A DNA stretch of 38,904 nucleotides from Planctomycetota bacterium (lineage in GTDB: Bacteria > Planctomycetota > Phycisphaerae > Phycisphaerales > SM1A02): NCBI GenBank assembly GCA_022563315.1, contig JADFNO010000013.1, forward strand, positions 1 to 38,904. Reading direction: 5' to 3'. The position numbers and the translations under genes are program-made. Shown here in pieces: positions 3,571 through 10,211 of this stretch. Below the pieces are notes generated by a model. The model was not told where the DNA came from and did not search any database. It saw only the letters and a program-made list of their open reading frames with translations. Position 1 is the stretch's first letter; each line of letters begins with the position of its first letter.

Positions 3571-3594
3571 TTTAGCCGCGGAGCTTGCCCCGCG
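3571..3594. repeat. Diverged REP-like hairpin
   Basis: Begins TTTAGCCGCG, the same ten bases that begin the 26-bp repeats around the RAYT gene. It then forms a hairpin between CGCGG (3577-3581) and CCGCG (3590-3594) with loop AGCTTGCC. It lies between the paaF and paaG genes. Confidence 0.55.
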
Positions 3595-3616
3595 CTCTTC
3601 TACGTAGGACACGACC

Positions 3617-4432
3617 ATGCCCGCCACCACTGCTTCAACAACCTTCGAAATGCTCACCGTTGAGACGTCCGATCACATCTGCACGATCACGCTCAATCGC
3701 CCCAAGGTGTATAACGCCTTCAACGATCAGCTCACGTTCGAGTTGCAAGATGCGCTCAAGCAGGCCGAGCGCGATCACGACGTGCGCGTGATCATCATCA
3801 CCGGCGCGGGCAAGGCCTTCTGCTCCGGCCAAGACCTTGGTGATCTCAAGGAGCGGTACGTACCGGGTTATGTCCCGGAGTTCGCCAAGGACCTCGATCG
3901 TCGCTACAACCCGATCGCCAAGCGCATCATCAATATGGAAAAACCTGTCATCGCCGCGATCAACGGCGTGGCGGCGGGCGCGGGTTGCAGTCTCGCCCTG
4001 GCCTGCGATATCCGCATCGCGTCGCAACACGCCTCACTCATCGAAGTGTTCATCAACGTCGCGCTGATCCCCGATACGGGCAGCACCTATACGCTGCCGC
4101 GGCTGGTCGGGCTCGGCAAGGCGAAGGAACTCTGCTTCACCGGAGACAAAGTGGATGCTGAGGAGGCGTTGCGGATCGGGCTCGTCAATCGTGTTGTGGA
4201 TGCGGATCAGTTGATGGACGAGACGCGAGCATTGGCGAAGAAGCTCGCGTCGCTCCCCAGTCGTGGGATCGCGTTGACGAAGCGATTGTTGAACCAATCG
4301 TTTGATAATGACTTGGATGGACAACTTCAGGCGGAGTCATTCGCGCAGGACACGGCAGGCCGAACCGAGGACCACTTCGAGGGCGTGAGCGCGTTCCTCG
4401 AAAAACGCAAACCGCAGTTTAAGGGATCCTAA
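3617..4432 (+). CDS. paaG: PaaG-like crotonase: ring-1,2-epoxyphenylacetyl-CoA isomerase
   Basis: Crotonase-fold protein, 271 aa, likely the isomerase that converts ring-epoxidised phenylacetyl-CoA to oxepin-CoA and shifts a later double bond. FCSGQDLGD (68-76) is the typical PaaG oxyanion segment. Asp153 in ALIPDTGST matches the single catalytic Asp of PaaG. The glutamate found in the neighbouring hydratase at GGCE is absent (GAGCSLAL), as expected for an isomerase. An AGGA at 3605-3608 precedes the ATG. It is one of two adjacent, clearly different crotonases, as in other paa operons. Confidence 0.87.
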   Translation: MPATTASTTFEMLTVETSDHICTITLNRPKVYNAFNDQLTFELQDALKQAERDHDVRVIIITGAGKAFCSGQDLGDLKERYVPGYVPEFAKDLDRRYNPIAKRIINMEKPVIAAINGVAAGAGCSLALACDIRIASQHASLIEVFINVALIPDTGSTYTLPRLVGLGKAKELCFTGDKVDAEEALRIGLVNRVVDADQLMDETRALAKKLASLPSRGIALTKRLLNQSFDNDLDGQLQAESFAQDTAGRTEDHFEGVSAFLEKRKPQFKGS

Positions 4433-4433
4433 C

Positions 4434-4459
4434 GTTTAGCCGCGACCCAAAGGGGAGCG
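4434..4459 (+). repeat. 26-bp REP-like hairpin, copy 1 (left border of RAYT gene)
   Basis: Starts GTTTAGCCG and continues CGCGACCCAAAGGGGAGCG. The hairpin has outer pairs CGC/GCG, a symmetric GA/GA mismatch, inner pairs CCC/GGG and loop AAA. It is identical to the inverted copies at 5066-5091 and 10186-10211. Confidence 0.85.
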
Positions 4460-4469
4460 CTTTCCCATC

Positions 4470-5105
4470 ATGGTTCACGCATACCACATCATCTTCTGTG
4501 CCTACGGTTTCTGGCTCCCCAACGATCCGCGCGGATCGTGGTCGGAATTCGTCGGTGCTTGGGAGCTGTTGAGATTTGGAACAGCTACGAAGACAGATAC
4601 CCGCCGATCGGTCGCCGGCGTTGCACATGATCGGGTAGTTCGGCAAGCCGCCAAGCGCGAACTGAAGCACTCACCGGTTCACTTTACGGGTGTTCAGGCG
4701 CAAAGCATCGGCCGTGGATTCGCCGGTTTTGTCGATCGCTCCGGCGTAAACGTATTGGCCTGCTCGATCCTTCCAGAGCACGTTCATATGGTCGTATCAC
4801 GTCATCGGTTTAGGGTGGAGCAGATTGCGAATCTGCTCAAAGGCGCTGCGACAAGACAGTTGTCAAGCGATCGTCTGCATCCGTTCGACTCGTCGCAGCC
4901 GACGAACGACCGTTTGCCCAACATGTGGGCTCGCGGACAGTGGAAGGTGTTTCTTAATTCCGAGGCGGATATCTCCCGAGCCGTGCGCTACGTCCAGGAC
5001 AACCCGTTGAAAGAAGGAAAGCAGCGACAACGTTGGGGCTTTGTGCGGACGGTCGCCGCACGAAACGCTCCCCTTTGGGTCGCGGCTAAACGCGCTGATG
5101 GCTGA
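4470..5105 (+). CDS. REP-associated tyrosine transposase (RAYT), IS200-like Y1 fold
   Basis: Y1 HUH-type transposase, 211 aa, single-domain, of the group that mobilises or maintains REP hairpins. The HUH motif is His104-Val-His106 in LPEHVHMVV. LLKGAATRQL (122-131) matches the KG helix of IS200-type enzymes. Tyr174 in RYVQDNPLKEG is in the position of the nucleophilic tyrosine. The gene lies between inverted copies of a 26-bp REP-like hairpin, the typical RAYT arrangement. Its last 16 or so residues are encoded by the right-hand repeat, and its stop (5103-5105) lies 8 nt inside the following paaH. No typical ribosome binding site was seen. The core looks intact, so it may be active, but single-copy RAYTs are usually domesticated. 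Confidence 0.82.
   Translation: MVHAYHIIFCAYGFWLPNDPRGSWSEFVGAWELLRFGTATKTDTRRSVAGVAHDRVVRQAAKRELKHSPVHFTGVQAQSIGRGFAGFVDRSGVNVLACSILPEHVHMVVSRHRFRVEQIANLLKGAATRQLSSDRLHPFDSSQPTNDRLPNMWARGQWKVFLNSEADISRAVRYVQDNPLKEGKQRQRWGFVRTVAARNAPLWVAAKRADG
5066..5091 (-). repeat. 26-bp REP-like hairpin, copy 2 (right border of RAYT gene)
   Basis: Exact inverted copy of 4434-4459, read here as CGCTCCCCTTTGGG followed by TCGCGGCTAAAC. It encodes the RAYT C-terminus and ends 6 nt before the paaH ATG, so it forms the paaH leader. Confidence 0.85.
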
Positions 5106-6270
5106 CCGCTCTTCCACCCTCGGAATCATCGGCGCCGGCACAATGGGCGCAGGCATCGCCCAAGTTGCCGTCACGACCGGGTGGAACGTCGAGTTGATGG
5201 ATGTCGATGAATCGATCGTCCGCAACGCCATCGATGGTATCGTCAAACGCCTCGATCGCCTTGTCGAGAAGAAGCGGATCACGCAGGAACAGCGAGACGA
5301 CGCGGCCGGTCGATTGCTCGTGGCAAGCTCACCCGATTGCCTCAGCCGTTGCGAATTGGTCATTGAAGCGGTCGTCGAGGATCTCGATATCAAGTCGAAG
5401 GTGCTCGAAAACGTCATCCCGGCTTTGCGCGACGATTGCATTATCGCCACGAACACCTCGTCTCTGTCGATTACCAAGATTGGCGAGACAATCGGTCAAC
5501 CGCACCGCACGGTGGGTATGCACTTCTTCAACCCCGCGCCGATCATGAAGCTGGTCGAGGTTATTCAGGGCGCGGAAACCGATCCGGCCGTCGTCGATCG
5601 TGTGGCTGAGATCGCGGTGAGCTGGGGCAAGAAGGTTGCGCGGGCTGCGGACGTGCCTGGGTTCATTGTCAATCACGTGGCCCGGCCGTACTACCTCGAA
5701 GCGTTCCGCATCCTTGAGGACGGCTACGCTTCGCCGGACGTAATCGATCGCGCGATGAAGTCGCTCGGCGGATTTCGTATGGGTCCGCTGGAATTGACGG
5801 ATTTCATCGGCCAGGATGTCAACACCGCGACCACGCGCTCGGTCTGGGAGCAGTTGGACCGGCCAGTGTTGCTTACACCGAACCCGTTGCAGGAAAAACT
5901 TGTTGCTGATGGATATTTGGGCAGGAAGACCGGGCGCGGTGTGTATGACTATGGTGGCGATGAACCGGTTGTTACGTTGCGGGTCGATCACAGATCGTTG
6001 GAGATGACCGCGGAGCTGCGCGAAGCCGCAAGCGGGTTTGTGCGAAAGGCGACGAACGAGGCCGGCGACGAATTGGAGGAATACATCTTTGCACGAATTC
6101 TCGTCGCACTCATTACCCAGGCGAAACTTGCCAATGAGCGCGGCGTGGCGGAGAAAGCCGATATCGATACGGCCCTCAAGTACGGCGTGAACTATCCTAA
6201 AGGCCCGTTTGAGTGGGCCGATCAGATTGGGCCCGAGCGAGTGAATGCGCTGAAGGGTGCGCTGGGCTGA
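5098..6270 (+). CDS. paaH: 3-hydroxyacyl-CoA dehydrogenase, PaaH-like
   Basis: NAD-dependent oxidation of 3-hydroxyadipyl-CoA to 3-oxoadipyl-CoA, 390 aa. The N-terminal Rossmann domain has GAGTMG (12-17). The catalytic and substrate residues of the family are visible: Ser121 (NTSSLS), His142 and Asn145 (MHFFNP), Glu154 (LVEVI) and Asn192 (VNHVARP). Two C-terminal dehydrogenase domains follow (about 187-280 and 300-390), so it is longer than the 280-aa butyryl type and shorter than the 475-aa E. coli PaaH. The ATG at 5098 was chosen because the Rossmann fold starts there. The paaH leader is a REP copy overlapped by the RAYT 3' end, so this gene may have lost its original upstream spacing. Bases 6018-6035 carry the recurrent word GCGCGAAGCCGCAAGCGG. 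Confidence 0.88.
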   Translation: MADRSSTLGIIGAGTMGAGIAQVAVTTGWNVELMDVDESIVRNAIDGIVKRLDRLVEKKRITQEQRDDAAGRLLVASSPDCLSRCELVIEAVVEDLDIKSKVLENVIPALRDDCIIATNTSSLSITKIGETIGQPHRTVGMHFFNPAPIMKLVEVIQGAETDPAVVDRVAEIAVSWGKKVARAADVPGFIVNHVARPYYLEAFRILEDGYASPDVIDRAMKSLGGFRMGPLELTDFIGQDVNTATTRSVWEQLDRPVLLTPNPLQEKLVADGYLGRKTGRGVYDYGGDEPVVTLRVDHRSLEMTAELREAASGFVRKATNEAGDELEEYIFARILVALITQAKLANERGVAEKADIDTALKYGVNYPKGPFEWADQIGPERVNALKGALG

Positions 6271-10144: not shown

Positions 10145-10185
10145 AGGAAGCAATCAACGTTCAGCCCTTGATGCCCTTGTGCTCG

Positions 10186-10211
10186 CGCTCCCCTTTGGGT
10201 CGCGGCTAAAC
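10186..10211 (-). repeat. 26-bp REP-like hairpin, copy 3 (orphan, upstream of paaD)
   Basis: Identical over 26 bases to the two copies that border the RAYT gene, about 5 kb away. It occupies the paaC-paaD gap with no transposase beside it, as expected for dispersed REP sequences acted on in trans. Confidence 0.85.

Follow-up and report, generated by a model that had tools for sequence, protein, structure and literature searches.

A probable REPtron composed of a planctomycete RAYT and its own TTAG-headed REP hairpins in a paa operon

We interpret a 658-bp insertion in the phenylacetate (paa) cluster of a Planctomycetota genome as a REPtron: a domesticated, single-copy RAYT (TnpAREP of class 2, with the motif Y---NP) that is flanked by its own REPs in inverted orientation and accompanied by a small dispersed population of these hairpins. 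The probability of this reading is, in our estimate, roughly 0.88. REP-RAYT pairs are a known kind of system, and this variant differs from them in its guide, which reads TTAG here, and GAAG in two or more lineages, where known REPs have GT[AG]G. The window, by which we mean the whole stretch of 38,904 nucleotides analyzed, is contig C248 of the source genome (G000; assembly of 3.76 Mb in 298 contigs).

The inserted unit and its hairpin family

The unit (positions 4434 to 5091, forward strand) consists of a REP, the RAYT gene, and an inverted REP, lies between the stop codon of ECH2 and the start codon of PaaH, and is bounded by GTTTAGCC...GGCTAAAC. Its left neighbor, ECH2 (3617 to 4432, +), is an enoyl-CoA hydratase gene, and its right neighbor, PaaH (5098 to 6270, +), is a 3-hydroxyacyl-CoA dehydrogenase gene whose ATG overlaps the stop region of the RAYT gene. 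The preliminary description had placed the RAYT gene within a paa cluster, and the Pfam families of the neighboring genes (PaaA/C, PaaB, PaaD, two enoyl-CoA hydratases, 3-hydroxyacyl-CoA dehydrogenase, and thiolase) agreed with that placement.

The left REP (4435 to 4460, +) begins with the head TTTAGC (4435–4440). An outer stem of CGC (4441–4443) with GCG (4457–4459) and an inner stem of CCC (4446–4448) with GGG (4452–4454) follow, separated by GA (4444–4445) opposite GA (4455–4456) and closed by the loop AAA, so that the hairpin reads TTTAGC-CGC-GA-CCC-AAA-GGG-GA-GCG, or TTTAGC-CGCGACCC-AAA-GGGGAGCG. The symmetric GA/GA mismatch between two GC stems noted at the outset is thus read directly in the sequence, and a DNA fold of the strand gave closely similar pairing; the fold energy by itself was not unusual (z of −1.5 and weaker). 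The 26-mer TTTAGCCGCGACCCAAAGGGGAGCGC is exact in the left REP and also at 10185 to 10210 on the reverse strand, where a solitary REP between paaC and paaD, with orthologous copies in two congeneric genomes, is the isolated third copy that had been claimed. At the right REP (5065 to 5090, −) the last base is T, not C. The flanking REPs therefore do form an inverted pair, but they are identical over 25 bases and not over the 26 first stated; counting the preceding CG, the identity extends to 27 bases (4433–4459 versus 5066–5092), and the 27-mer was placed at 5066 and 10186. No match to the 26-mer with up to three mismatches arose in 100 shuffles.

The last approximately 15 codons of the RAYT gene read across the right REP, with the stop codon overlapping the PaaH start. 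Given that this hairpin sits inside the reading frame, the protein is approximately 15 residues longer than most of its homologs. Other REPs were also seen to overlap the ends of genes: a RAYT in another genus (G014, L054) terminates at TAA within its own right REP, and the REP head GTTTAG at L011 (G000:C149:30781) supplies the stop codon of the upstream gene.

A genome search for the 26-mer, which had been set beforehand as a test, revealed 17 copies within three mismatches (reversed control pattern, 0) and not just the three in the window. A strict hairpin pattern detected 23 copies in the source genome (control, 0). In most genomes, the short head GTTTAGCSGC alone showed no enrichment relative to its reversed control, and counts were therefore based on the full hairpin pattern. 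A search of the source genome by the head TTTAGCCGCG alone yielded 25 family members, and every one of them retained both GA dinucleotides, including three with a mutated outer stem. Several solitary REPs of the source genome (L015, L016, L019, L022, L027, L029, and L030) adjoin degenerate short intergenic tandem repeats, GGCATNAAGGCATCGAGG, and REPs beside such repeats are numerous in this genome and its congeners. At L018, L023, and L041, approximately 60 bp upstream of the head are similar, which suggests a longer repeat that ends in a REP.

In the commonest genomic form, GCC/GGC replaces CCC/GGG in the inner stem (AGCC/GGC), a compensatory change. The view of the locus as a complete REP-RAYT pair accordingly needs qualification: REPs flank the gene and are dispersed, but the commonest variant does not flank the window RAYT. 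Either this RAYT moves both stems or the AGCC/GGC majority has lost a RAYT of its own. The second possibility is a version of the REPtron reading in which the window RAYT serves only the few ACCC/GGG copies and the pair is nearly extinct here, and we consider it to fall somewhat short of even odds. AGCC-stem REPs flank RAYTs in G056 and G044, none having been found to do so in G000–G002, and only five ACCC-AAA-GGG copies are present in the genome, three of them inside the window; on the other hand, one inverted pair (L024) joins an AGCC REP with an ACCC REP, and three related REP types are substrates of E. coli TnpAREP (PMC8266576). Truncated RAYT fragments in G001 and G014 were examined as possible partners of the AGCC/GGC REPs; these fragments carry another REP family.

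The sequence TTTAGCCGCG also occurs exactly at 3571. With one mismatch allowed, the bare 10-mer was found seven times in the window compared with 2.8 expected, which is little above chance, and the hairpin at this site is therefore judged on genome-wide evidence and not on the window. This hairpin, TTTAGCCGCGGAGCTTGCCCCGCGCTCT (3571 to 3598, +), lies between the two enoyl-CoA hydratase genes and is a member of a second REP family (TTTAGCCGCGGGGCTTGCCCCGCGCTCTT and variants) with its own RAYT at G000:C149:33779, a protein 43% identical to the window RAYT whose gene is flanked by members of that family. The shared head of this fourth hairpin thus stood, but the hairpin is not a decayed relative of the other three.

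REPs and RAYTs in related genomes

Both the RAYT and the strict REP pattern were sought in 61 genomes of the order. Four or more REPs were present in 12 of the 20 genomes with a close RAYT versus 2 of the 41 without one (Fisher P of 4.7e-6, or 6.6e-5 by genus, both optimistic because the genomes are related and their independence is overstated). The highest count, 63, was obtained for G056. The two exceptions lacking a close RAYT were G038, with 18 GA-stem REPs, and G055, with four diverged REPs. The latter belongs to genus g38, has empty paa junctions, and looks like a case of RAYT loss with decaying REPs; for G038, RAYT loss, an assembly gap, and mobilization by a distant RAYT are alternatives.

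We also compared the upstream with the downstream flanks of 46 RAYT genes, with shuffled controls and without the use of any head motif. A matched repeat exceeded every shuffle at 42 of the 46 loci, 38 of these 42 carrying TTAG and one GTAG. Hairpins headed by GAAGC were recognized on inspection at four loci, namely three of the four matched loci lacking TTAG (L068, L109, and L115) and L069, which fell just under the threshold. Given that the matched repeats carry TTAG or GAAGC heads, their common core is nnAGC, with nn mostly TT and sometimes GA. The genome counts and the matched flanks together establish the association of REPs with RAYT homologs in other genomes for which the preliminary description had called. 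Its assignment of TTTAGCCGCG to the place of the guide holds for the conserved core TTAG(C), but the bases before and after this core vary between RAYT lineages. The suggestion that the recognition sequence is specific to planctomycetes fits every named close homolog in one collection scan, which was not exhaustive.

In a set of 21 different REPs that share one length, pairing holds in 99% of stem cells, and two inner pairs change on both sides. Double changes in the inner stem amounted to 17 cells compared with 7.0 in shuffles, and the covariation score of 0.387 was higher than those of all 500 shuffles and all slid versions; only the inner stem provides a fair test of covariation, because fixed GA and outer-stem letters were used in collecting some of these REPs. 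On a tree of 56 RAYTs, the GA/GA stem was found in 13 of the 14 members of one clade (support 87/76) and was confined to it, with the remaining member, L108, having a different internal mismatch. GAAG and TTAG heads each required at least two changes on this tree. REP stems thus differ among RAYTs, covary, and track the protein tree; perfect palindromes are common among the REPs of the planctomycete clade.

The transposase and the history of the locus

The RAYT gene (4470 to 5105, +) encodes a TnpAREP-like Y1 HUH transposase of 211 amino acids, with HVH at residues 104–106 (codons at 4779–4787) and the catalytic Tyr174 (codon at 4989–4991) in the sequence YVQDNP. The intact reading frame, these motifs, and a match to Pfam Y1_Tnp (E of 1.5e-5) bear out its initial description as an intact-looking transposase. 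H104, H106, Y174, N178, and P179 are invariant among 42 homologs, and HUH together with Y---NP (Y174-VQD-NP) corresponds to RAYTs, or TnpAY1 class 2. Other characteristics of RAYTs were also found, namely flanking REP-like hairpins that are dispersed in the genome as well as low copy number, low paralog identity, and vertical inheritance, the close paralogs in the genome being only 43–53% identical to the window protein. The NCBIfam model for REP-associated tyrosine transposases, NF047646, gave 49.7 bits (E of 3.3e-13), which is below its equivalog cutoff of 80 bits, an annotation threshold and not a biological definition; this model matched all 42 homologs scanned, more than any other family did. 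The best PDB sequence match of the family profile was 4er8, the TnpAREP-REP complex (E of 3e-5). An AF2 model of the protein (pLDDT of 85) matched 4er8 with a Z of 11.5 over 119 residues, the longest span, and matched the IS608 and ISDra2 transposases equally well (Z of about 11.5). The dN/dS of the gene relative to G001, a congeneric Planctomycetota MAG (L107), was 0.115, close to the values of 0.034 and 0.080 for the neighboring enzymes, and the window RAYT is under purifying selection.

The ECH2/PaaH junction of G001 carries the same RAYT and REP type, and so does that of G014, which belongs to another genus (70% protein identity). ECH2 and PaaH are 665 bp apart here, whereas relatives that lack the insert mostly have gaps of −16 to 85 bp, and excision of 4434–5091 leaves a gap of 7 bp. 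The comparison with relatives that had been proposed therefore yielded empty sites for the whole unit, but not for solitary REPs, with the two nonshared ones examined giving no clean site. In the search for a precise insertion of a single REP, L011, L015, and L026 were compared with the congeners. L026 is common to them; at L015, both congeners instead have a shorter stretch that is rich in repeats and ends in GGCGAGCGTTT, which may be a remnant; and at L011 the downstream region differs in both, and G014 has another REP cluster at this position. Most of the 22 REP loci of the source genome are orthologous to REP loci in two congeners. Given this orthology and the failure to find a precise new insertion, present-day activity appears to be slow or absent.

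In three species of another family (G043, G047, and G059; L056, L058, and L059), a related RAYT with longer-looped REPs lies at the ECH1/ECH2 junction, one gene upstream of the ECH2/PaaH position in the paa operon. The RAYTs at the two junctions may form one clade (p-AU of 0.556). Given that a single clade is compatible with the tree, one old association with the operon and two entries are both possible. With regard to other insertions in this operon, a 23S_rRNA_IVP (four-helix-bundle) gene lies at 2298–2750 of the window, upstream of ECH1; a homolog bordered by short inverted tandem repeats of the GTCAGC type is located exactly at the ECH2/PaaH junction of G011 and G005 (L094 and L101), and this gene behaves as another small cassette entering the operon.

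An ordinary insertion sequence of the IS200/IS605 type, with the hairpins as its ends and moving as a unit, would also be bounded exactly by inverted hairpins and leave empty junctions in relatives, and the modeled fold is the same as that of IS608 and ISDra2. We nevertheless regard this explanation as very improbable. A near-identical second copy, the criterion for membership, was absent from the genome, where none exceeded 53% identity; the hairpins are dispersed alone; the gene occupies the same locus in two genera under purifying selection; and the protein matches REP_Tyr_transpos and 4er8 best, rather than IS200, and has the motif Y---NP. Marginally less probable still is that the hairpins are RNA-level elements (transcript stabilizers or attenuators between paa genes) with an incidental RAYT, for although the REPs at 3571, 4435, and 10185 lie between genes of one operon, could fold in RNA, and keep standard RNA pairs, the majority of copies are elsewhere in the genome, the RAYT flanks match each other, and the stem tracks RAYT phylogeny. 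A side effect of the hairpins on mRNA is compatible with the REPtron reading. The points that count against the REPtron reading itself are the population of about 23 copies, far smaller than the more than 100 often seen for typical REPs; the AGCC/GGC REPs unpaired with a RAYT in G000–G002; the REPs of G038; the orthologous positions of most solitary REPs in congeners; the NF047646 score below the cutoff; and the relatedness of the genomes behind the Fisher tests.

Guide recognition and relation to known systems

By analogy with characterized TnpAREP proteins (PMC8266576, PMC6006769), the window RAYT would bind the folded single-stranded REP through its stem, GA/GA mismatch, and unpaired head, and Tyr174 would cut at a dinucleotide beside the hairpin, with such cleavage leading to occasional REP spread. 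The TTAG head occupies the position of the guide GT[AG]G of known REPs, whose A3 and G4 pair with the CT cleavage site in the IS608-like model. CT is the predicted site because TTAG and GAAG leave A3G4 unchanged. In work on the TnpAREP proteins of E. coli, Stenotrophomonas, and Marinomonas, A3G4 of GTAG is believed to select CT, and when a guide base was mutated in the Marinomonas system, which is flexible, the cleavage site shifted as predicted (PMC8266576). E. coli REPs require a mismatched bulge (PMC8266576), of which the GA/GA mismatch is a likely counterpart.

The E. coli TnpAREP/REP system (group 2 RAYT, Quentin subclass 2.2; PDB 4er8) shares with the present one a single-copy Y1 HUH protein with Y---NP, its own flanking REPs, a conserved mismatch that interrupts the REP stem, and the profile and structure matches. 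The two differ in guide (GTAG in E. coli, TTAG here) and in mismatch (AA/GC versus GA/GA), and the window RAYT has a longer NH2-terminal segment, in which the motif YGFWLPNDPRGSWS occurs. Q95, E100, H101, and R104, which PMC6006769 lists as guide contacts of TnpAREP, are replaced in the window RAYT, where they align with A154, K159, V160, and N163. Residue 160, aligned with H101, is a candidate guide switch: V is present in 35 of 38 RAYTs with TTAG and P in all four with GAAG, which represent two lineages. V is also found at this position, however, in distant outgroup RAYTs whose heads are GAAG-like, and the proposed switch is therefore only a lead.

Group 3 RAYTs with GTAG-1 REPs in Stenotrophomonas and Pseudomonas (PMC2817692, PMC3733652) resemble the planctomycete clade in having several RAYTs per genome, each with its own REP family, and in having perfectly palindromic REPs, but their REPs have GTAG or GTGG heads and hundreds of copies, compared with TTAG(C) and tens here. 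TnpAY1 class 3 of Planctomycetes, Acidobacteria, and Proteobacteria (PMC6006769) likewise includes planctomycete HUH proteins and atypical hairpin heads; its Y----Q motif and CnGA foot differ from the Y---NP and TTAG found here, which place the window RAYT outside that class. With TIRYTs and TIRtrons (PMC3733652), the locus shares a RAYT-like gene between inverted repeats other than GTAG REPs, and Rhodopirellula baltica is said there to have numerous tyrosine transposase genes accompanied by flanking repeats. TIRtrons are defined by long flanking TIRs unrelated to REP hairpins; the repeats here are 26-nucleotide hairpins with one shared head, and a comparison at the level of the reported shared motif, GGGGWSAS, gave no match with GGGGAGCG. 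The planctomycete REPs also depart from the GTAG superfamily, both in its GT[AG]G foot (TTAG at 38 of 42 loci, GTAG at one, and GAAG at four loci in all) and in its usual abundance of more than 100 copies per genome (23 in the source genome, with a maximum of 63 in G056).

No report of TTAG-headed REPs was found in a search of the main text of open-license papers. A large RAYT survey was based on GT[AG]G and, apart from subclass 2.6 and class 3, reported no atypical heads (PMC6006769). Given the absence of a description in this literature and the pattern used by the survey, the TTAG heads are likely, but not certain, to be novel.

We consider the chances about equal for and against a lineage of planctomycete RAYTs whose guide GT[AG]G gave way to TTAG and, separately in two or more lineages, to GAAG, with A3G4 and the following C always kept. 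If this is true, guide bases 1 and 2 are able to change together with the protein, whereas pairing to the cleavage site holds the last two in place. Guides of the systems studied to date read GTAG or GTGG, with no substitution accepted by E. coli TnpAREP, so that protein contacts and cleavage-site pairing have been hard to separate. Natural TTAG and GAAG guides together with replaced guide-contact residues separate the two, with the prediction that positions 1 and 2 are set by the protein and positions 3 and 4 by the cleavage dinucleotide. In addition, the perfect and GA-mismatched REPs of this clade, which track the protein tree, provide a natural series for studies of hairpin recognition.
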